A DNA stretch of 64,000 bases from Candidatus Methylomirabilota bacterium (GTDB taxonomy: Bacteria > Methylomirabilota > Methylomirabilia > Rokubacteriales > CSP1-6), in the NCBI GenBank assembly GCA_035709005.1, contig DASTFB010000087.1, positions 186,001 to 250,000 on the forward strand, in the 5' to 3' direction. Position 1 is the first letter of the stretch. Every line of letters starts with the position of its first letter. The notes beneath the pieces were generated by a model. That model ran no database searches. It saw only the letters and a program-made list of their open reading frames with translations, and was not told the DNA's origin. A program made the translations under genes and the position numbers. Positions 10,047-18,779 of this stretch are shown one piece after another.

Positions 10047-10730
10047 CTATCTCGTCAGACCTTCCACCAGGGAATGCGCCGCGTCATTGTCCCAGGTTCG
10101 TGGCCCCAGCGCCAGGGCGGCCAGGTTGCCGTGCCGGTCGACGATGAACGTCGCGGGCAGCGCGCGCACGCCGTAGAGGTTGGCCACCTCGAATTTGGAG
10201 TCCAGCGCGACCGGGAACGTCAAGCGATGCTCGGCCACGAAGGGCCCGACGGGGGCGGGATCGCCGTCCAGCGAGACCGCGAGCAGGACGAAGCCACTGC
10301 CCTTGTGCTGTCGCCACAGCCGCTCCAGCGCCGGCATCTCCTCGAGGCAGGGTGGGCACCAGGTGGCCCAGAAGTTGACGAGGAGCACCTGTCCCCGATG
10401 CGCGGCGAGGCGGAAGGACTTGCCGCCCAGCAGGGGCAGCGTGAAGTCCTGCACGGCGCGGGGCCGGGACGGCCGGATCAGGTCCAGCTCGCGCATGGCC
10501 GCGTCGACGGAGATCTGACGCCCGCCCCGCGGCGTGCCCGCAGAGCCGGACGCCGGCCCCGGGGGCGCCGGCGCCGCTGGGGACGCCGGCGGCGTCTCCG
10601 GGCGGGCCGGCCGGGCGTGGACGACCGGAGCCTCGTCTTCCGCCGGACGTGAGGCGACGTAGGCGAGGCTCACGGCGATCGCCGTCAGCACCGCCGCGAG
10701 CAGAATCGAGCGAGCCAGCGCTCTCGACAT
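10047..10730 (-). CDS. TlpA-like extracytoplasmic thioredoxin
   Basis: A 227-residue protein with one N-terminal membrane anchor (SILLAAVLTAIAVSLAYVA), a Pro/Ala-rich linker (about residues 30-65) and a thioredoxin domain with FWATWCPPCLEEMPAL and the cis-Pro segment VRALPATFIVD. ATG 10730 was chosen over GTG 10742 because the GAGGG at the proper distance serves the ATG only. Its start region is shared with the divergent promoter of the peptide-binding protein gene. It is the likely partner of the CcdA encoded just downstream, for cytochrome c maturation or general thiol reduction. Confidence 0.9.
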   Translation of the reverse strand: MSRALARSILLAAVLTAIAVSLAYVASRPAEDEAPVVHARPARPETPPASPAAPAPPGPASGSAGTPRGGRQISVDAAMRELDLIRPSRPRAVQDFTLPLLGGKSFRLAAHRGQVLLVNFWATWCPPCLEEMPALERLWRQHKGSGFVLLAVSLDGDPAPVGPFVAEHRLTFPVALDSKFEVANLYGVRALPATFIVDRHGNLAALALGPRTWDNDAAHSLVEGLTR

Positions 10731-10752
10731 GGATGAAAGCACCCTCTATATT
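10724..10752 (+). promoter_or_regulatory. Sigma-70-type promoter of the ABC binding-protein gene
   Basis: TCGACA (10724-10729) and TATATT (10747-10752) are separated by 17 nt, close to the -35/-10 consensus and unusual in this GC-rich background. The predicted start near 10759 leaves a short leader holding GAGGAGG at 10767-10773 before ATG 10780. The -35 box lies inside the first codons of the divergent TlpA-like gene. Confidence 0.55.
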
Positions 10753-10779
10753 ATGCCCGCCTCGGCGAGGAGGTCGGAC

Positions 10780-12576
10780 ATGGATGAACGAGAGCTGCAC
10801 GAGCTGCTGAGAGAGGTCAAGGCCGGACGCCTGTCGCGCCGCGCCTTCATGACGTCGATGATCGGGCTGGGGCTGACGGCGCCGATGGTGAGCCAGATGC
10901 TGGCGTCGGCCGGGATCGCGCAGGCCCAGCCGAAAACGAGCGGCTTCACCCCCACCAAGCGCGGCGGCGGAGGCCTGGTGAAGGCCCTCTTGTGGCAGGC
11001 GCCCACGCTCCTCAACCCGCAGTTCGCCGTGGGGACCAAGGACCAGATCGCCTCCCGCGTGTTCTACGAGCCGCTCTGCTCCTACGACCCCGACGGCAAT
11101 CTGGTCCCCGTGCTGGCCGCCGAAGTTCCCAGCCAGCAGAACGGGATGTTGACGAAGGACGGAAAGTCGGTCACCTGGCGGCTGAAGAAGAACGCCGTGT
11201 GGCACGACGGCAAGCCGTTCACGGCCGACGACGTCGTCTTCACCTGGGAGTACGTGATGGATCCGGCGACGGCGGCCGTCACGGCCGGCCCCTACCGGGA
11301 CATCGCGCGCATCGACAAGCTGGACAGCCACACCGTGAAGATCGCCTTCAAGAACCCGGCGCCGTTCTGGTCGGCGCCCTTCTGCGGCGGCACCGGCATG
11401 ATCATCCCCAAGCACCTCTTCGCAGCGTACAAGGGGGACAAGTCGCGCGAGGCGCCCACGAACCTCAAGCCGGTGGGCACCGGGCCCTTCAAGTTCGTGG
11501 ACTTCAAGCCCGGCGACATCGTGCGCGGCGAGATCAATACGCAGTACCACGTCCCCAACCGCCCCTTCTTCGACCAGGTCGAGCTCAAGGGCGGCGGCGA
11601 CGCCATCTCGGCGGCTCGCGCGGTCATCCAGACCGGCGAGTACGACTACGCCTGGAACCTGCAGGTGGAGGACGACATCCTCAAGCGCCTGGAGCAGGGC
11701 GGCCGAGGGCGGGTCGACATCGCCGCCACCGGCAACATCGAGCACATCCAGCTCAACAACACCGACCCGTGGAACGAGGTGGACGGCGAGCGCTCCTCGG
11801 TCAAGAGCAAGCATCCGGTCCTGACCGACCCCGCCGTGCGCCAGGCCCTGAACCTCCTGGTGGACCGGGCCTCGGTGCAGGAGCAGATCTACGGGCGGAC
11901 GGGTCTGGCCACCGCGAACTTCCTCAACGCGCCCGAGCGGTTCCGCTCGAAGAACACGCGCTACGAGCTCAACATCGACAAGGCCAACCAGATCCTGGAC
12001 CAGGCCGGTTACAAGCGGGGCCCGGACGGGATCCGGGCCAAGGACGGCAAGAAGCTGAAGTTCGTCTACCAGACGTCGATCAACGCCCCCCGGCAGAAGA
12101 ACCAGCAGATCGTCAAGCAGGCCTGCGCCAAGGCTGGGATCGATGTGGAGCTGAAGGCCGTGACCGCCTCCGTCTACTTCTCGTCGGACGCGGCGAACTG
12201 GGACACCTACAATCACTTCGCCACCGACATCCAGATGTACACGACCACCATGACCGAGCCCGACCCCCAGCGCTTCATGGATCAGTTCACCTCCTGGGAG
12301 GCGGCCGGCAAGGCCAACAAGTGGCAGGGACGCAACAAGACCCGGTGGCAGAACGGGGAGTACGACAAGCTCTGGAAGGCCGCCGAGTCCGAGATGGATC
12401 CGGTCAAGCGGGCGAGCCTGTTCATCCGGATGAACGATCTCGTCATCCGCAACGTTGTCGTCATCCCCGTCGTCTACCGGCCGCGCGTGGCCGGTATCTC
12501 CAGCCGGCTGCGGGATGTCGTCCAGAGCGGCTGGGACGTGGATACCTGGGGCCTGGCCTACTGGTCGCGCGCCTAG
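10780..12576 (+). CDS. ABC transporter substrate-binding protein, peptide/opine type
   Basis: A 598-residue family-5 extracellular solute-binding protein. Residues 1-45 hold a Tat-like signal (LSRRAFMTSMIGLGL then ASAGIAQAQ), and the mature part shows the family pattern WRLKKNAVWHDGKPFTADDVVFTWEY near residue 130. The C-terminus ends VDTWGLAYWSRA. ATG 10780 is fixed by a GAGGAGG 6 nt upstream; an in-frame GTG/ATG further upstream would lie before the predicted transcript start. The two permease genes follow immediately, but no ATPase subunit genes do, so the ATPases must be encoded elsewhere or borrowed. The ligand (oligopeptide, opine, nickel chelate or other) is not determined. Confidence 0.92.
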   Translation: MDERELHELLREVKAGRLSRRAFMTSMIGLGLTAPMVSQMLASAGIAQAQPKTSGFTPTKRGGGGLVKALLWQAPTLLNPQFAVGTKDQIASRVFYEPLCSYDPDGNLVPVLAAEVPSQQNGMLTKDGKSVTWRLKKNAVWHDGKPFTADDVVFTWEYVMDPATAAVTAGPYRDIARIDKLDSHTVKIAFKNPAPFWSAPFCGGTGMIIPKHLFAAYKGDKSREAPTNLKPVGTGPFKFVDFKPGDIVRGEINTQYHVPNRPFFDQVELKGGGDAISAARAVIQTGEYDYAWNLQVEDDILKRLEQGGRGRVDIAATGNIEHIQLNNTDPWNEVDGERSSVKSKHPVLTDPAVRQALNLLVDRASVQEQIYGRTGLATANFLNAPERFRSKNTRYELNIDKANQILDQAGYKRGPDGIRAKDGKKLKFVYQTSINAPRQKNQQIVKQACAKAGIDVELKAVTASVYFSSDAANWDTYNHFATDIQMYTTTMTEPDPQRFMDQFTSWEAAGKANKWQGRNKTRWQNGEYDKLWKAAESEMDPVKRASLFIRMNDLVIRNVVVIPVVYRPRVAGISSRLRDVVQSGWDVDTWGLAYWSRA

Positions 12577-12626
12577 CGGTCCGAGGCGGGAGCCGGGTCG
12601 CCCGGCCCGGCTTCCGCTGAGGCGGC

Positions 12627-13586
12627 ATGTCCAGGTACCTCGTTCGGCGCCTCTTGATCGCCGTCCCGGCCCTCCTGGGGATCAGCCTCGTGCTGTTCAC
12701 GGTCCTGGCCCTGGCCCCGGGCGACCCCTTCGAGGAGCTGGCCACCAATCCGAATGTTCCGGCCGAGGTGCGCCTGAACCTCAGGGCGAAGTTCGGCATG
12801 GACGATCCGGTGCCGGTGCGCTACGCGCGCTGGCTCACCTCCATGCTGCGCGGGGAGTGGGGATTCTCGTTCGCCAGCCGCGTCGACGTCGACACCTTGA
12901 TCCTCCAGCGGCTGCCTACCACGCTCATCGTCTTGGGCTCCGCCCAGCTGCTGGGGCTGCTCATCGCGCTTCCCGTGGGGACGCTGTCGGCGATGCGCCC
13001 CTACTCCATCTTCGACCAGGTGGCGACGACGTTCGCCTTCATCGGCTTCTCGCTGCCGACGTTCTTCACCGGCCTGCTCTTCATCCTGCTCTTCAGCATC
13101 TATCTCGACTGGCTGCCCTTCATCTATCGCGCCGACATCGCGGCGACCGGCTGGCAGTGGTACTGGGAGCACCTCAAGCAGGCCATCATGCCCGTCACCG
13201 TGCTGGGCCTCTTCCAGGCCGCCTCGCTGACCCGGTTCACCCGCTCGGCGGTCCTCGACGTGATCCGGCTGGATTACGTCACCACCGCCCGGGCCAAAGG
13301 GCTCTCCGAGCGCGTCACCATCCTCAAGCACGTGATCCGCAACGCCCTCATCCCGGTGGTGACGCTGGTCGCGCTCCAGCTGCCTCAGATCTTCACCGGA
13401 GCCGTGGTCACCGAGCAGATCTTCCGGGTTCCCGGCATCGGGTCCCTGCTCATCTCGGCTATCCTGGCCAACGACACGCCGGTGATCATGGCCATCACCT
13501 TCGTGTTCTCGTGCCTGGTCGTGCTCTTCAACCTGGTGGCGGACCTCGCCTACGGCTGGCTCGACCCCCGGATCTCCTTCCGCTGA
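12627..13586 (+). CDS. ABC transporter permease, DppB/OppB type
   Basis: A 319-residue inner-membrane permease. The N-terminus SRYLVRRLLIAVPALLGISL is characteristic of DppB-like subunits, followed by the large periplasmic loop and the EAA-like cytoplasmic loop containing DYVTTARAKGLSERVTILKH (about residues 213-232), which contacts the ATPase. Its TGA shares one base with the ATG of the next permease, so the two are translationally linked. Confidence 0.93.
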   Translation: MSRYLVRRLLIAVPALLGISLVLFTVLALAPGDPFEELATNPNVPAEVRLNLRAKFGMDDPVPVRYARWLTSMLRGEWGFSFASRVDVDTLILQRLPTTLIVLGSAQLLGLLIALPVGTLSAMRPYSIFDQVATTFAFIGFSLPTFFTGLLFILLFSIYLDWLPFIYRADIAATGWQWYWEHLKQAIMPVTVLGLFQAASLTRFTRSAVLDVIRLDYVTTARAKGLSERVTILKHVIRNALIPVVTLVALQLPQIFTGAVVTEQIFRVPGIGSLLISAILANDTPVIMAITFVFSCLVVLFNLVADLAYGWLDPRISFR

Positions 13587-14527
13587 TGGCCGACGACGCC
13601 GCCTCGGCCGCCATTTCGGCTCCCGTTCTTCCCCGCGGCGTGGCCAGCGACACGCTCTGGACCGAGATGCGGCGCCGCTTCCGACGCCATCGTCTGGCCA
13701 TGGCGGGGACGCTGGTGCTCGCCCTGATGGTCCTGGCGGTCCTGGTCGGGCCGCTAATCTACCGGGTGCCCGTCAACGAGATCGATTTCCGGGCCAAGCT
13801 CCAGGGACCGTCCTGGGCGCATCCGCTCGGCACCGACGATCTCGGCCAGGACCTGCTGGCCCGCATGCTCTATGGCGGGCGCATCTCGCTGGCGGTCGGC
13901 CTGGCCGCCATGCTGATCGCGATCACCGTCGGCACGCTCATCGGCGCGCTGTCCGGGTATGTCGGCGGCGTGATCGATCAGGCCCTCATGCGCGTGACCG
14001 ATCTGTTCCTCTCCCTCCCGCAGCTACCGCTGCTGCTGCTCATCGTCTACCTCTTCCGTGACCTGCTGAAGAACGCGCTGGGCGCGGAAGCCGGGGTGTT
14101 CGTGCTCATCGTGGCCGTCATCGGCGGGCTGCGCTGGATGCCGGTGGCCCGTCTGGTGCGTGCGCAGTTCCTGTCCCTGCGCGAGAAGGAGTTCGTCGAA
14201 GCCGCGCGCGCGCTGGGCGCGCCCCCGCCCCGCGAGGTGATTCGCCACATCTTGCCCAACGCCGTGGGCCCGGTGATCGTGGCCGGCTCGCTCGACGTGG
14301 CCACGGCCATCATCGCCGAGTCCACGCTGTCGTTCCTCGGCCTGGGCTTCCCGCCCGACATCCCGACCTGGGGACGGATCCTCTTCGACGCCAAGGACAA
14401 CCTGGACTTCGCCCCTCACTGGGCGGTGTTCCCGGGGACGGCCATCTTCCTGACCGTGCTGTCGATCAACTACGTGGGCGATGGGCTGCGCGACGCGCTG
14501 GACCCTCGGCGAGTGCTGGGGGATTAG
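13586..14527 (+). CDS. ABC transporter permease, DppC/OppC type
   Basis: A 313-residue permease with the DppC-type N-terminal cytoplasmic segment (LWTEMRRRFRRHRLAMAGTL), the characteristic HPLGTDDLGQDLLARMLYGGR after the first helix, and the EAA loop FVEAARALGAPPPREVIRHI. It ends 4 nt before a strong bidirectional hairpin terminator. No ATPase genes follow, which makes the operon incomplete as an importer. Confidence 0.93.
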   Translation: MADDAASAAISAPVLPRGVASDTLWTEMRRRFRRHRLAMAGTLVLALMVLAVLVGPLIYRVPVNEIDFRAKLQGPSWAHPLGTDDLGQDLLARMLYGGRISLAVGLAAMLIAITVGTLIGALSGYVGGVIDQALMRVTDLFLSLPQLPLLLLIVYLFRDLLKNALGAEAGVFVLIVAVIGGLRWMPVARLVRAQFLSLREKEFVEAARALGAPPPREVIRHILPNAVGPVIVAGSLDVATAIIAESTLSFLGLGFPPDIPTWGRILFDAKDNLDFAPHWAVFPGTAIFLTVLSINYVGDGLRDALDPRRVLGD

Positions 14528-14574: not shown

Positions 14575-15105
14575 CTAGCCCTGGCCCTGCAGGAGGAGCT
14601 TGGCCACCTCGGACACGATCGCGCGAGCCCGTTGGTCCAGCTCGGCTTCCGTGAGGTTGGCGATCGGGTGCGGCATCATCAGGAACCGGTAGTCGGGGAG
14701 CCCCCACTGGGTGGCCATGGCCCGGCCTGTTCCCTCGAACACGTCGGTCACGATCGAGGCCGAAGGCACGCCGGCCTTCTCGAGGACGATGCCGTCGAGC
14801 ACACTGCCCGACGAGCAGGACCCTCAGTCGCCGATGCCGGCGACCACGACGTCGCAGGTCCGGCGCACCTCCTCGACGATCTCCTCGTGGGCGGGCACGC
14901 TGGCGTTCCGCTTGCGCCACATGCGCGCCGAGGCGGCCCCGTACTCCTGGACCAGCAGATCACCGATCTTCTGGAGCAACCGGTCGGAGTTGAACTTGGT
15001 GTTCTCGATGAGGGCCACGCGCTTGCCGGTGAGCGACGTCGGCCGGGCCGTGTAGGCGATGGCCTGCCGGGCCGCCGGGGTGGTAGGGTCGAGGAGCTCG
15101 ATCAT
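14575..15105 (-). CDS. Stand-alone UGSC-motif selenoprotein (Sec94)
   Basis: A 176-residue protein read through an in-frame TGA at 14824-14826: DVVVAGIGD-U-GSCSSGSVLDGIVLEKAG. The frame continues without shift for 82 more codons of sensible protein sequence (TDVFEGTGRAMATQWGLPDY, MPHPIANLTEAELDQRA). The Sec-Gly-Ser-Cys motif defines the UGSC selenoprotein family, and a Sec/Cys pair two residues apart suggests a selenenylsulfide redox centre, though the reaction is not known. Its ATG overlaps the TGA of the preceding partner-domain gene (ATGA). The same strand carries a second UGSC domain, aligned throughout, in the fusion gene at 16171-17769. A hairpin at the same distance after the UGA as in the paralogue serves as SECIS. 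Confidence 0.93.
14793..14813 (-). promoter_or_regulatory. Candidate SECIS hairpin of the stand-alone UGSC gene
   Basis: Positions +11 to +31 after the UGA fold as an 8-bp stem CGUCGGGC/GCUCGACG (one G-U pair) with loop AGUGU. Spacing, stem length and loop are the same as in the fusion paralogue (loop AGUAU). Base pair 16/26 is G-U here and U-A there, and pair 18/24 is C-G here and G-C there, so pairing is kept despite substitutions. Confidence 0.8.
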
Positions 15106-16139
15106 CGCTTGATCTCCTTTGTCACGGCTTGGCAGGAGCGCCGGCTGCCCCAGCCGGGAATGTAGGCGGAGAAGGCTCCGGCTCGCCCGCCTGCGGCCAC
15201 GACCAGAATATCATCGGGCGTTTCCACCAGCGGGCGCATCTTGCTCTCGTCACCCGGCTGAACCGGGCCGGCCATCCGCTGGGTCCGCCTGAGGTGGGCG
15301 TGGGAGTTCTGGGTGTGCTCCCACACGAAGCGGCGGATCTCCGGCTTGCCCCAACCGCCGGCGGCGATGGTCCGCATGTGCTCGCCGGCGATGATCAGCG
15401 CGTAATGCGGCTGCCCCATCACGTTGCCGGAGATCCGCATGGCGTCGCTGAGGGTGGTGAGAAACCCTTCGGCGGTATTGGAGAGCTGGTTGTACACCTG
15501 ATGGGGAGCCTCGGCGGCCATCACGGTCACCGCGCTCTGCTCGGGCCGGAGCCCCCGCTCCACGTGCAGGGGCGTCCACGGACTTTCCTCCTCGTTCTCC
15601 CCGATCACGTAGGAGAGCTTGCCGGGATGGCCCAGGGTGCCCCGGTCCAGCGTCCCCGGCCAGGATCCGCACACGTTGCGCATGATCAAGCGCACGGCCC
15701 GCCCGATGGTGAGATTCGAACGCCAGCCCGGCCCGAAGAGATTGTCGCCGCAGTTGATGTCCAGCTCCCGCCGGATGGGCCCGTTGACGATCATCAGCAC
15801 CCCGGCGCCGGCCGTCGAGGTGCCGGGCCCGTGATAGGACCACCGCGGGTCTCCGATGGCCTCCACGGCAGCGACCACCACCGGCATGTAGGCGGGGAGG
15901 CAGCCGGCCATCACCGCGTTGATGGCGACCTTCTCGGCGGTGATGGAGACCGCGCGGTGCTCGACGTAGGACACCTGGTGCTGCGGCTGCAGCCGGACCG
16001 CCTCCAGCATGGCCCGCACCTTGGCCTCGGTCGGGGGCACGACGGGCAGACCGTCGCTCCACCCTTGCTGAAAACAGAACTCGATGGCGTCGTCCGCGCT
16101 TGCCACGGAGTGACGCTGCGACGTCAACGTGACGGACAT
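15102..16139 (-). CDS. UGSC partner protein (uncharacterised conserved family)
   Basis: A 345-residue soluble-looking protein that I cannot assign to a named family. It aligns over its length with the C-terminal two-thirds of the UGSC fusion protein. Shared blocks are QGWSDGLPVVPPTEAKVRAML, MIVNGPIRRELDIN, the strongly conserved TLGHPGKLSYVIGENEEESPW followed by PLHVERGL, and the C-terminal PDDILVVAAGG. The conserved His, Glu and Gly residues suggest an enzyme or metal/cofactor binder. ATG 16139 follows an AAGGAG with good spacing. The gene overlaps the stand-alone UGSC gene by 4 nt, so partner and selenoprotein are made together, and the fusion elsewhere in the operon implies they act as one complex. 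Confidence 0.85.
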   Translation of the reverse strand: MSVTLTSQRHSVASADDAIEFCFQQGWSDGLPVVPPTEAKVRAMLEAVRLQPQHQVSYVEHRAVSITAEKVAINAVMAGCLPAYMPVVVAAVEAIGDPRWSYHGPGTSTAGAGVLMIVNGPIRRELDINCGDNLFGPGWRSNLTIGRAVRLIMRNVCGSWPGTLDRGTLGHPGKLSYVIGENEEESPWTPLHVERGLRPEQSAVTVMAAEAPHQVYNQLSNTAEGFLTTLSDAMRISGNVMGQPHYALIIAGEHMRTIAAGGWGKPEIRRFVWEHTQNSHAHLRRTQRMAGPVQPGDESKMRPLVETPDDILVVAAGGRAGAFSAYIPGWGSRRSCQAVTKEIKR

Positions 16140-16170
16140 GGCGCTCCTTTCTCCAGCGGCGGCCACCCTA

Positions 16171-17769
16171 TCACCGCCCCCTGGCGGGGGCAACGGGCTC
16201 TTCCACGGGCACGGTCACCGCGCGGGTGGCCCCGAAGGTCGGGACGATCGCCGAGTGCTTGCCGGGGCCTCCGGCCACGACCACCATCACGTCGTCGGGG
16301 GTGACGGCGACGCTCACGGTGTCGTCGGGCGAACGGCCGCGGAACCGGGCGGGGTCGATGGTGGCGAACCGGGCCAGGTTTTCCCGGCTGAACGCGCCCA
16401 GGCGCACGCGCGCGCGCTCGAAGAAGGCGCGCTTGAGGTCTTGCTTCGACCAGCCCGACGCGGCGATGGTCCGGGCGTGCTCGGGACCGAGAATGATCAA
16501 TGGCTCTCCGCCCAGGTAGATGTTGTTGTTGCCGGTGGTCGCGGCGGTACCGGCCAGCGCCGACAGCATCGCCTCCGCCGACGTCGAGCCATGGTCGTTG
16601 ACATTGTGGGGCGCCTCGGCGCCGCACACGGTCACGCAGCTGGTCGAGGCCGCCAAGCCGCGCTCGACGTGGAGCGGCTCCCAGGGCGATTCCGCCTCGT
16701 TCTCGGCCACACAGTAGGTGAACTTGCCGGGATGGCCGAGCGTGGCCCGGTCACCCTGGCCGGGTCGCGCCCCGCCGACGTTCTGCAGCGTGAGCCGGAG
16801 GGCGCGCCCCACGACGGCGTTCGCCCGGTGACCCTGCCCCAGGGCGTTGGGACCAGCGCTCACCCCGAGCCGCCGGGCGGCGGGACCATTCACGATCACC
16901 AACGGTGTGCACGGGTGGGTGGTGGCCTGGATGGCGTCGAGGTTGAAGCGGGGATCGGCGACAGCGCGGACAGCGGCGATCACCAGCGGCAGATGCTCGG
17001 GTCCGGCGCCGGCCAGCGCGGCATTGGCCGCGATCGCTTCGAGGGTTGCCCCGCCCCGTCGCGGCGCCAGGGTGGCCACGACCTCTCCGGCCGGCCGGCC
17101 GGAGAGCAGACGGGCGACTCGCTCGGCAGTCGGCGGCAGCACCGGCAGCCCGTCCCCCCAGCCTTCGGCGAGGGCGAACTCCTGGAACGCCTCGATGTCG
17201 TCGGGCGCGGCCAGCAGGGCGGCCGCGCGCGCCGCCGCCCTCGCCGAGGGAACGGGATCACGGGTCAGCGCGTGCACAACCGCGTCGAACACGCCGGCGG
17301 CGCGCGCCGCGACGGCCTCCGGATCCACGCCGCCGATGGGGTGGGCTACGGTGACGACGGGAAGGTCGGGCATGCCCAGCGCGGCGGCCGCGCCGTGGCC
17401 CAGCGAGGCGAAGAGATCAGTGCCCAGAACGACGGTGGGGATTCCCCGCGCCTCGATCTCGACCGCGTCGTGGATACTCCACGACGTGCAGGACCCTCAG
17501 TCCGCGGAACCGGTCAGGACGACGTCGGCGGCTCCCACGATGGCGTCGATGTCTTCGGCGGCCCGCGAGGACCCCGGCTTGCGCCAGCGGCGGATCGAGG
17601 CCACGCCGGCCCGGCTGACCAGGAGCTCGGCCAGGCGCGCCAGGAGCACGTCCGCGTTGGGCTTGGAGTTGTCCAGGACGGCGAGCCGGCAGCCGCCGAG
17701 AGCGGCGGGGCGCTTGGCCAGCGTTCTCAGCGATGTGTCGGTCAGCCCCAGCGGACTCAGCACCTGCAT
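16171..17769 (-). CDS. UGSC selenoprotein fused to its partner domain (Sec91)
   Basis: A 532-residue protein read through TGA 17497-17499: DVVLTGSAD-U-GSCTSWSIHDAVEIEA. Residues 1-175 are a UGSC domain (opening CRLAVLDNSKPNADVLLARL, then RRWRKPGSSRAAEDI). After a short linker, residues about 195-532 match the stand-alone partner protein (EGWGDGLPVLPPTAERVARL, RATLGHPGKFTYCVAENEAE, SPWEPLHVERGLA, VTPDDVMVVVAGG). ATG 17769 is preceded by GGGGAGG at 8-nt spacing. Stopping at the TGA would give a 90-residue stub and leave the long downstream reading frame (ATG 17373) without an N-terminus or ribosome site. It begins 14 nt after a CPBP protease gene and is followed 31 nt later by the partner gene. 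Confidence 0.93.
17466..17486 (-). promoter_or_regulatory. Candidate SECIS hairpin of the UGSC fusion gene
   Basis: Positions +11 to +31 after the UGA form a fully paired 8-bp stem CGUCGUGG/CCACGACG with loop AGUAU (G at the second loop base). This meets the bacterial SECIS requirements for distance and loop composition and is superimposable on the hairpin of the stand-alone paralogue. Confidence 0.82.
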
Positions 17770-17783
17770 CGAGTGGGCCTCCC

Positions 17784-18779
17784 CTATGTCCAGGCGTGGG
17801 CCAGGAACGCGACTAGATCGTAGACCACGTGGACGACGATAGTAAACGTCGTCGAGGTGCGCCGTTTCACCAGGCCGAGCGCTGCCCCCACCGCGAAGAT
17901 CATGAGGATTCCTGGGATCTGATACTGGACGTGGAGGACGGCGAAGAGCGCGGCGCTGACGGCGATGCCGACCCGGGGCTGGAGCGCGCCCCGGAAAAGC
18001 ACTTCCTCGCCCACCCCGGCGCTGAGCGACACCAGGGCTGCGCCAGCCACCGGCGGGATGCCGACGAGCTCGAATTCGAACCGGTCCTCGAGCGCGTGAA
18101 CGCCGGGAAGCACCAGGCTCTCGGCCCACTCCATGACGGCGACCGCGACGTTCAGGGCGAGCGCCGTCAGCGCCGCGTAGCCGACCTGCGGCGGCCGGAG
18201 TGGTCTGAGGTCGAGACGGGCCAGGGTCACGGCCACGTCGCGCGTGACCAGGAAGCCGACGCCGGCCAGAGCCAGGGCGACGTCGGAGACGACGGCGACC
18301 AGTGGCTCCGTCGGATGGAACGGGACGCTGGCGGAGGGCTCCTCCTGCAGTTGCACGAACAGGACGGCCGCGGAAAGGGCGGTCAGCACCATCGTCGCGG
18401 CGGCCACGGCGTGGACGGGACAGGCCGGGTCGAGCCCCAGCGGTCGCAGCCAGGCCGCGCGGAGCCGGGCCGGCGCCAGCACGGCGGCCAACGCGGCCGC
18501 CGCAAGCGAGGCGACGACCGTCTCGAAGGGATCGAGCCCGAACGGCTCCAGCGCGAGCGCCCACGTCGCGGCCGCGCCGGCCGCACACACTGCGGCGACC
18601 GCCAGGGCCACCCCGGTCAAGTGATTCCTGCCCCAGCTGGCGCGCCCCACCGCGTGCGCCGCCACCGCGGCGACGATCAGCGGAACGGTGAGGGCCAGGC
18701 CCTCCGCGACACCGGCGAGGTCGAGCGCAGTGAAGGCGACCGATAGAACCAGCCAGAGGAGCAGGCCCCACCCGGGCAT
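17784..18779 (-). CDS. CPBP-family intramembrane metalloprotease
   Basis: A 331-residue polytopic membrane protein. The C-terminal third holds the CPBP (CAAX protease/bacteriocin-processing) motifs: GVGEEVLFRGALQPR (glutamates and arginine of motif 1), FAVLHVQYQ (motif 2 histidine) and VVHVVYDLVA (motif 3). The N-terminal part is made of hydrophobic helices rich in Ala. An AGGAGGG precedes ATG 18779. It ends 14 nt before the UGSC fusion gene and is probably its operon leader, which hints at a membrane-linked job for the UGSC system; this is inference from position only. Confidence 0.87.
   Translation of the reverse strand: MPGWGLLLWLVLSVAFTALDLAGVAEGLALTVPLIVAAVAAHAVGRASWGRNHLTGVALAVAAVCAAGAAATWALALEPFGLDPFETVVASLAAAALAAVLAPARLRAAWLRPLGLDPACPVHAVAAATMVLTALSAAVLFVQLQEEPSASVPFHPTEPLVAVVSDVALALAGVGFLVTRDVAVTLARLDLRPLRPPQVGYAALTALALNVAVAVMEWAESLVLPGVHALEDRFEFELVGIPPVAGAALVSLSAGVGEEVLFRGALQPRVGIAVSAALFAVLHVQYQIPGILMIFAVGAALGLVKRRTSTTFTIVVHVVYDLVAFLAHAWT

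Follow-up and report, generated by a model that had tools for sequence, protein, structure and literature searches.

Are two short RNA hairpins, each lying just behind an in-frame UGA codon, signals for the insertion of selenocysteine (Sec), or are they by-products of the protein encoded there? This is the question raised by two genes on the minus strand of a 64,000-nucleotide stretch of DNA from Candidatus Methylomirabilota bacterium, an inhabitant of soil and groundwater (contig DASTFB010000087.1, positions 186,001 to 250,000), which we call the window. Gene A (14575..15105, minus strand), a stand-alone member of the UGSC family, gives on read-through translation a (seleno)protein of 176 residues that would carry Sec at residue 94. 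Gene B (16171..17769, minus strand) gives 532 residues with Sec predicted at residue 91, if its terminal TGA at 16171-16173 is taken as the stop; its UGSC domain is fused to a C-terminal domain like the partner protein of gene A described below. The in-frame UGA codons (14824..14826 and 17497..17499, minus strand) are placed by the sequence and by a conserved alignment column. We believe both hairpins are bacterial selenocysteine insertion sequence (SECIS) elements, a prediction made from sequence in which we place very high confidence. They are ordinary elements of their kind that happen to be unusually well supported.

Hairpin positions are numbered from the first base after the UGA. The UGA of gene A (14826-14824) is followed by GGGTCCTGCT CGTCGGGC AGTGT GCTCGACG, and the hairpin from +11 to +31 (14793..14813, minus strand) reads CGUCGGGC-AGUGU-GCUCGACG as RNA, with every base of the stem paired. 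The UGA of gene B (17499-17497) is followed by GGGTCCTGCA CGTCGTGG AGTAT CCACGACG, and the hairpin over the same interval (17466..17486, minus strand) reads CGUCGUGG-AGUAU-CCACGACG, again fully paired. Pair 16/26 is G-U in gene A and U-A in gene B, while pair 18/24 is C-G in gene A and G-C in gene B. An earlier note on this DNA had described an 8-bp stem with an AGUAU or AGUGU loop at +11 to +31 in both genes and paired differences at 16/26 and 18/24; the sequence agrees on all of these, and the coordinates it gave, 14793-17486, mark the outer limits of the hairpin pair. In the RNAfold structures A19 is paired with U23 as well, leaving a triloop of GUG in gene A and GUA in gene B. We assign these elements on sequence, fold, conservation and covariation together.

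The published model for bacterial SECIS elements (bSECIS) has a loop of 3 to 9 nucleotides on a stem of 4 to 16 bp, with a G in the first two loop positions and a GU or GG pattern; it also gives the form N1-G-U-N-N2, a loop 16 to 37 nucleotides after the UGA and an energy below -7.5 kcal/mol (PMC13188914). Both hairpins have a G within the first two loop positions, whether the loop is read as AGUGU and AGUAU or as the triloops. Their stems are 8 bp plus A19-U23, and 18 nucleotides separate the UGA from loop nucleotide +19. Folded as 50 nucleotides including flanks they reach -25.2 kcal/mol (gene A) and -20.1 kcal/mol (gene B), well inside the energy limit. Against dinucleotide shuffles gene A has a z of -3.32 over 50 nucleotides, with 0 of 200 shuffles as stable, and -1.00 over 60; gene B has -1.71 over 50 nucleotides, with 9 of 200 as stable, and -1.76 over 60. 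These energies are only moderately unusual, therefore the two sequences alone are weak evidence and the homologues must decide. A scan of the window with Rfam gave no family at its gathering score, and relaxed E-values added three unrelated matches, all far below theirs.

Both products belong to the known UGSC (seleno)protein family. The product of gene A scores 141.6 bits against NF041046 (cut-off 125) and 205.5 bits against PF24696 (cut-off 25), with a single TGA within the domain; that of gene B scores 133.8 and 167.7 bits against the same two models. Six UGSC genes occur in their own genome, and each has a single TGA. Among 95 genomes of the phylum, 72 have UGSC genes, with as many as 12 in one; the search found at least about 359 matches in those 72, and every match among those listed has exactly one TGA. 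The homologue set that we compared is not a random sample: 29 loci came from the phylum search, 100 were chosen from the matches listed and 40 from a further search. A profile search then gave 363 matches, of which 3 lack a residue at the Sec column; the other 360 sites were reduced to 287 by removing identical flanks. The column holds TGA in 242 of these, TGC in 41 and TGT in 4, so that Sec and cysteine (Cys) interchange at the first position of the U/C-G-S-C motif that defines the family. Motif variants carrying TGA (USSC in loci L077 and L078, UGGC in L083 and L099) fall outside the G-[STA]-C anchor pattern and were included through the profile. One Sec site with fewer than 60 nucleotides downstream was left out, and 241 Sec genes and 45 Cys homologues were analysed.

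The named loci nearest to the window come from metagenome-assembled genomes (MAGs) of Candidatus Rokubacteria and Rokuibacteriota, which places its genome in the Rokubacteria group. Named relatives are also found in Entotheonella, Tectomicrobia, Nitrospinota, Betaproteobacteria, SAR324, Binatota and Actinobacteria; a pattern search of viral contigs gave 31 matches with no relative among them. Most Cys forms are from Actinobacteria or from plasmids, those of haloarchaea among them. On a tree of 283 sequences of both types, Sec and Cys interchange at least 12 times, against at least 37 for shuffled labels. The Cys set therefore appears scattered among the Sec clades, several of whose joints are weakly supported, and it serves as a matched comparison.

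The hairpin goes with the UGA. The exact core, meaning pairs 14/28 to 19/23 together with GU at 20-21, is present in 199 of 241 Sec genes and in 0 of 45 Cys homologues, 4 of which have the six pairs without the GU. When synonymous codons were shuffled within the genes' own usage over 100 rounds, the exact core survived in a mean of 1.9 and a maximum of 6 genes of 241. If any register is allowed, 238 of the 241 Sec genes have a bSECIS-like stem with at least 5 contiguous pairs, against a shuffled mean of 82.8 and maximum of 101. The Cys homologues show no excess by this measure (25 of 45, with a shuffled mean of 24.4). Of the 241 Sec genes, 150 form outer pair 11/31, 151 form 12/30 and 172 form 13/29. 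These outer pairs are lineage-specific, and the general element is a 6-bp stem with a GUN triloop. The 8-bp stem of the earlier note is thus complete in genes A and B and is not general; the conserved core of +14 to +28, as the homologue comparison defines it, lies at 14796-14810 in gene A and 17469-17483 in gene B, both on the minus strand. With a covariance model of the element, the six UGSC genes in the window's own genome reach 50 to 65 bits, and the next match there has 24 bits. The 22 matches with E up to 5 include these six and two opposite-strand UGSC hairpins; the seven next matches were examined, and none coincides with a TGA in an open frame.

Covariation supports the same conclusion. 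We used a custom test similar to R-scape, though it is not R-scape itself: a tree was built from the protein without the Sec region, and the null redistributes the same substitutions over its branches. It took all 241 Sec genes and ranked 1128 position pairs. The two pairs singled out in the earlier note come out on top of this larger alignment, 18/24 ranking first and 16/26 second, with E of 0.007 to 0.013 for two weightings of the null. Pair 15/27 is eighth, and the five pairs in ranks three to seven all lie in the same or adjacent codons. Branches on which both sides changed number 7 for 18/24 (0.37 expected), 7 for 16/26 (0.85) and 6 for 15/27 (0.54), and 7, 6 and 4 of these go from paired to paired. 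Outer pairs 11/31, 12/30 and 13/29 show no significant covariation in this test. A thinned alignment gives a score of 0.318, against 0.105 shuffled and at most 0.102 when the partner is slid by 1 to 3 columns, with changes on both sides in 8 of 9 pairs. It holds 63 of 65 listed sequences (L292 and L310, whose 4-nucleotide loops need gaps, were left out), and the list admitted only sites with GT at 20-21, so it describes the in-register class.

Further evidence is purely synonymous. Positions 18 and 24 are the third bases of codons 6 and 8, respectively. Valine stands at codon 8 in 175 Sec genes, and it is GTC in 34 of 34 with G18 and GTG in 141 of 141 with C18. The 33 Cys homologues with the same valine divide into 12 G-C, 6 G-G, 4 C-C, 7 C-G and 4 others (p 0.14). 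Serine at codon 7 is AGT in 196 of 196 Sec genes, a codon that makes up 4.4% of serine codons elsewhere in these genes and that serves for 2 of 12 codon-7 serines in the Cys homologues. Where codon 7 of a Sec gene is glycine it is GGT (5 of 5), and where it is Cys it is TGT (6 of 6); the GU of the loop is therefore held whatever the residue. One homologue from a Burkholderiales MAG, L179, is 66% identical to gene A and has the identical peptide SSGSVLDGILL behind a TGC in place of the Sec codon; its codon-7 serine is TCG and its hairpin is broken. Conversely, the pairs are kept while the peptides vary (SSGSVLD, SSSSVLD, TSWSVHD, SAASLAD, TTCSVHD).

These data bear directly on the idea that the hairpin is a by-product of protein conservation next to the active site. 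The region does follow the Sec motif, and it encodes conserved residues (D at codon 10, S or T at codon 4). However, the signal lies in synonymous bases, synonymous shuffling destroys the core, L179 retains the amino acids without the hairpin, and elsewhere the amino acids change while the pairs stay. A protein-level constraint cannot account for the valine coupling, the AGT usage and L179, and we regard this explanation as already refuted, with hardly any probability left to it. The RNA is under selection for its pairing and for the GU of its loop. That selection acts here on RNA structure rather than on protein, as the earlier note had proposed, is borne out by the shuffles, the covariation, the synonymous codons and L179, and the bSECIS expectation of a structure under selection independent of the protein is supported by the first three of these. 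A different objection accepts the conserved structure in the coding region but gives it another role, such as ribosome pausing, read-through without Sec or mRNA stability. Sequence data cannot show what binds an RNA, and this is the opening for such a view. We think it very improbable since the position, stem length, loop G-U and energy all fit the published bSECIS rules (PMC13188914), and since there is no hairpin where Cys replaces Sec, in genomes where SelB is mostly absent as well.

As to the machinery for Sec, SelB (361.1 bits), tRNA-Sec (68.9 bits) and SelA (596.2 bits) are all over cut-off in the window's own genome, the latter two on the same contig. SelB is over cut-off in 84 of the 95 phylum genomes and, outside the phylum, in 15 of 19 genomes with Sec-type UGSC genes against 4 of 20 with Cys forms only. 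This matters for two further alternatives. The UGA codons could be true stops, in pseudogenes or split genes, or assembly errors, and automatic calling of open reading frames does cut both gene A and gene B at the UGA. Against this stand the 242 of 287 non-redundant sites with UGA in the same column and a Cys codon otherwise, the exactly one TGA in every listed phylum match, the long conserved coding sequence beyond the UGA, and the SelA, SelB and tRNA-Sec just mentioned; true stops are exceedingly unlikely. Alternatively the whole genome might have reassigned UGA, for example to tryptophan or glycine, since both genes read through one. But each UGSC gene has a single UGA in one alignment column, Cys is the only replacement elsewhere, reading all TGA as sense produces implausible giant frames, and a reassigned code would sit oddly beside SelA, SelB and tRNA-Sec. 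We consider reassignment the next thing to impossible.

Several observations count against reading these hairpins as SECIS elements and should be stated plainly. The exact core is missing in register from 42 of the 241 UGA genes. In many of these the stem is in a different register or carries a different loop. Genes with peptides of the SPAVVGH type have GGUC at 18-21, those of the TPAVLRAS type have CGUGNU at 18-23, and further loops include GGUU and UGUAU. Six genes (L267, L270, L286, L288, L289 and L356) have a CUUGU or CUUGC loop, which fits the published rule only if the closing G-C opens, and L283 and L354 have AUGUG. Three genes, L097, L302 and L313, lack any contiguous stem of at least 5 bp with an early loop G; in L097 this is due to one mismatch (G16, A26). 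The expectation in the earlier note that UGA and hairpin stay together therefore holds for 238 of 241 genes, which keep a stem against about 83 when shuffled, and fails for these three. As to covariation, 15/27 is not significant alone (E 2 to 3), and 14/28, 17/25 and 19/23 are too invariant for significance. SelB is not found over cut-off in 11 of the 95 phylum genomes or in 4 of the 19 Sec-UGSC genomes outside it, misses that are likely due to fragmented or incomplete MAGs. Among these misses is G103, a betaproteobacterial groundwater MAG (the L192 genome, which also holds L241, L259 and L261-L280). It has about 25 UGSC matches, almost every one with a single TGA, and no SelB at E up to 1e-40. 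Either the contigs with its SelB are missing, or this MAG is a mixture, or these genes are not decoded. Apart from these tallies, the genes with CUUGU, CUUGC or AUGUG loops, and L313 as well, have no G at the usual first or second loop position; the stem is intact in them, though short in L313.

How would such an element work? It has been described that the lower SECIS helix unwinds on the ribosome during SelB-dependent recoding (PMC13188914). With the UGA at the ribosomal A site, the core stem-loop from +14 to +28, of 6 bp with a GUN triloop, would stand just outside the mRNA entry. There it would hold SelB-GTP-Sec-tRNA(Sec), and the UGA would be read as Sec instead of as a stop. By then the ribosome would have taken in and unwound the outer pairs, +11 to +13, and this would explain why they are not conserved. 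We infer the SelB binding, the recoding and the argument from ribosome position in this scheme. Selection on pairing and on the loop GU fixes the synonymous codons, AGU for serine and GUG or GUC for valine by complementarity.

Where the element is in this register, the seventh residue after Sec is also limited to amino acids that have an NGU codon, and serine, glycine and Cys are those observed. This leads us to a broader idea, that the SECIS steered the evolution of the UGSC protein and was re-invented in place: residue 7 was confined, neighbouring codons co-evolved, and the hairpin was re-registered in divergent clades. The reading of in-place re-invention draws on loops GGUC, CGUGNU, GGUU, CUUGU and AUGUG on peptides SPAVVGH, TPAVLRAS, TWQGSAG and TSWLVHD. 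We offer it tentatively, as a proposal with a little less than an even chance of being right. If it is true, a single SelB would read loops outside the consensus, as in G102 and G104, each with a single SelB match (E up to 1e-40) and with genes of the AGUNU as well as the CUUGU type.

The surroundings of the two genes deserve a brief description. The partner protein of gene A is an open reading frame of 345 residues (15102..16139, minus strand) that precedes it. Its stop codon overlaps the start of gene A (ATGA), so the two are probably translationally coupled. With the C-terminal part of gene B it shares 42% identity, and its tblastn matches include 208 loci among those longer than 1500 bases. 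Across bacteria and haloarchaea a protein of this type adjoins UGSC or is fused to it. It has no match in Pfam or NCBIfam, both libraries having been scanned; among 46 members there is no credible Pfam match, and no sequence in the PDB matches. A model of it (predicted local distance difference test, pLDDT, 92.7) has top Foldseek matches at a template-modelling (TM) score of about 0.3, with no credible fold match. The UGSC protein itself is modelled (pLDDT 93.3) as a generic alpha/beta fold whose Sec follows a strand and lies at the N-terminal end of a helix. Foldseek finds weak matches to mixed alpha/beta folds, including flavodoxin-like ones (best E 8.9e-4, TM about 0.5), and in VIA-align many unrelated alpha/beta folds match, with Z up to 10.3. 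We rejected a specific structural relative or function for the UGSC protein since these fold matches are weak or spread over unrelated folds.

Other clues to function come from neighbouring genes. Thioredoxin and thioredoxin reductase genes (trxA and trxB) adjoin a Cys-form UGSC gene and its neighbour gene on an Arthrobacter plasmid (L360), and trxB does so on a Roseovarius plasmid (L365). Because of these neighbours a thiol-dependent (thioredoxin-dependent) reductive system is suggested for UGSC. Within the window, 10729-14527 beside the UGSC genes resembles a peptide-type ATP-binding cassette (ABC) transporter, a binding protein with two permeases, judged from sequences alone; this putative transporter may supply the substrate of the UGSC genes. 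A 564-residue open frame antisense to gene B (16129-17823, plus strand) is probably a by-product of high G+C. Elsewhere, on the IncP plasmid of Acidovorax sp. T1 (L361, NZ_CP021650.1, typed as conjugative), a UGSC gene has both an in-frame TGA and a SECIS hairpin. The record shortens it to a hypothetical protein, so that this mobile element probably carries a misannotated selenoprotein.

As a rule a bacterial SECIS element is accepted on the fold of one sequence. It is important to realize that for UGSC hundreds of natural variants, matched Cys homologues and synonymous-site covariation together show selection on the RNA, and that here a signal in the coding RNA narrows the choice of amino acids next to an active site. 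A literature search that covered its sources in part found no published covariation analysis of UGSC SECIS elements, which is not proof that there is none. In genome annotation the covariance model tells the UGA codons of UGSC genes apart from stops. Paralogue sets (six genes here, about 25 in the betaproteobacterial MAG) are natural libraries for the loop requirements of SelB.

It remains to compare these elements with what is known. The UGSC family and its use of Sec are not new: the family was described in 2008 from the marine metagenomes of the Global Ocean Sampling (GOS) selenoproteome as an abundant selenoprotein family, with 255 Sec and 21 Cys sequences (PMC2398784), and it is listed in a 2026 review, which also reports that Methylomirabilota can be rich in selenoproteins, with 63 predicted genes in one MAG (PMC13188914). 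The window proteins score over the family's curated cut-offs (NF041046; PF24696) and share its UGSC motif and its Sec or Cys at the first position. As family members nothing sets them apart; in gene B the UGSC domain is fused to the partner domain. As for the bSECIS consensus, both window hairpins, with A-G-U-N-U, follow every rule, while some UGSC genes depart from it (loops CUUGU, CUUGC and AUGUG). The SECIS of E. coli fdhF, whose minimal upper stem-loop was reportedly worked out by Liu et al. in 1998, has an essential upper stem-loop with a bulged U and a dispensable lower part. The dispensable lower part is in line with the conserved UGSC core. Unlike the fdhF element, the UGSC core has no bulged U, and its GUN loop is closed by A-U.

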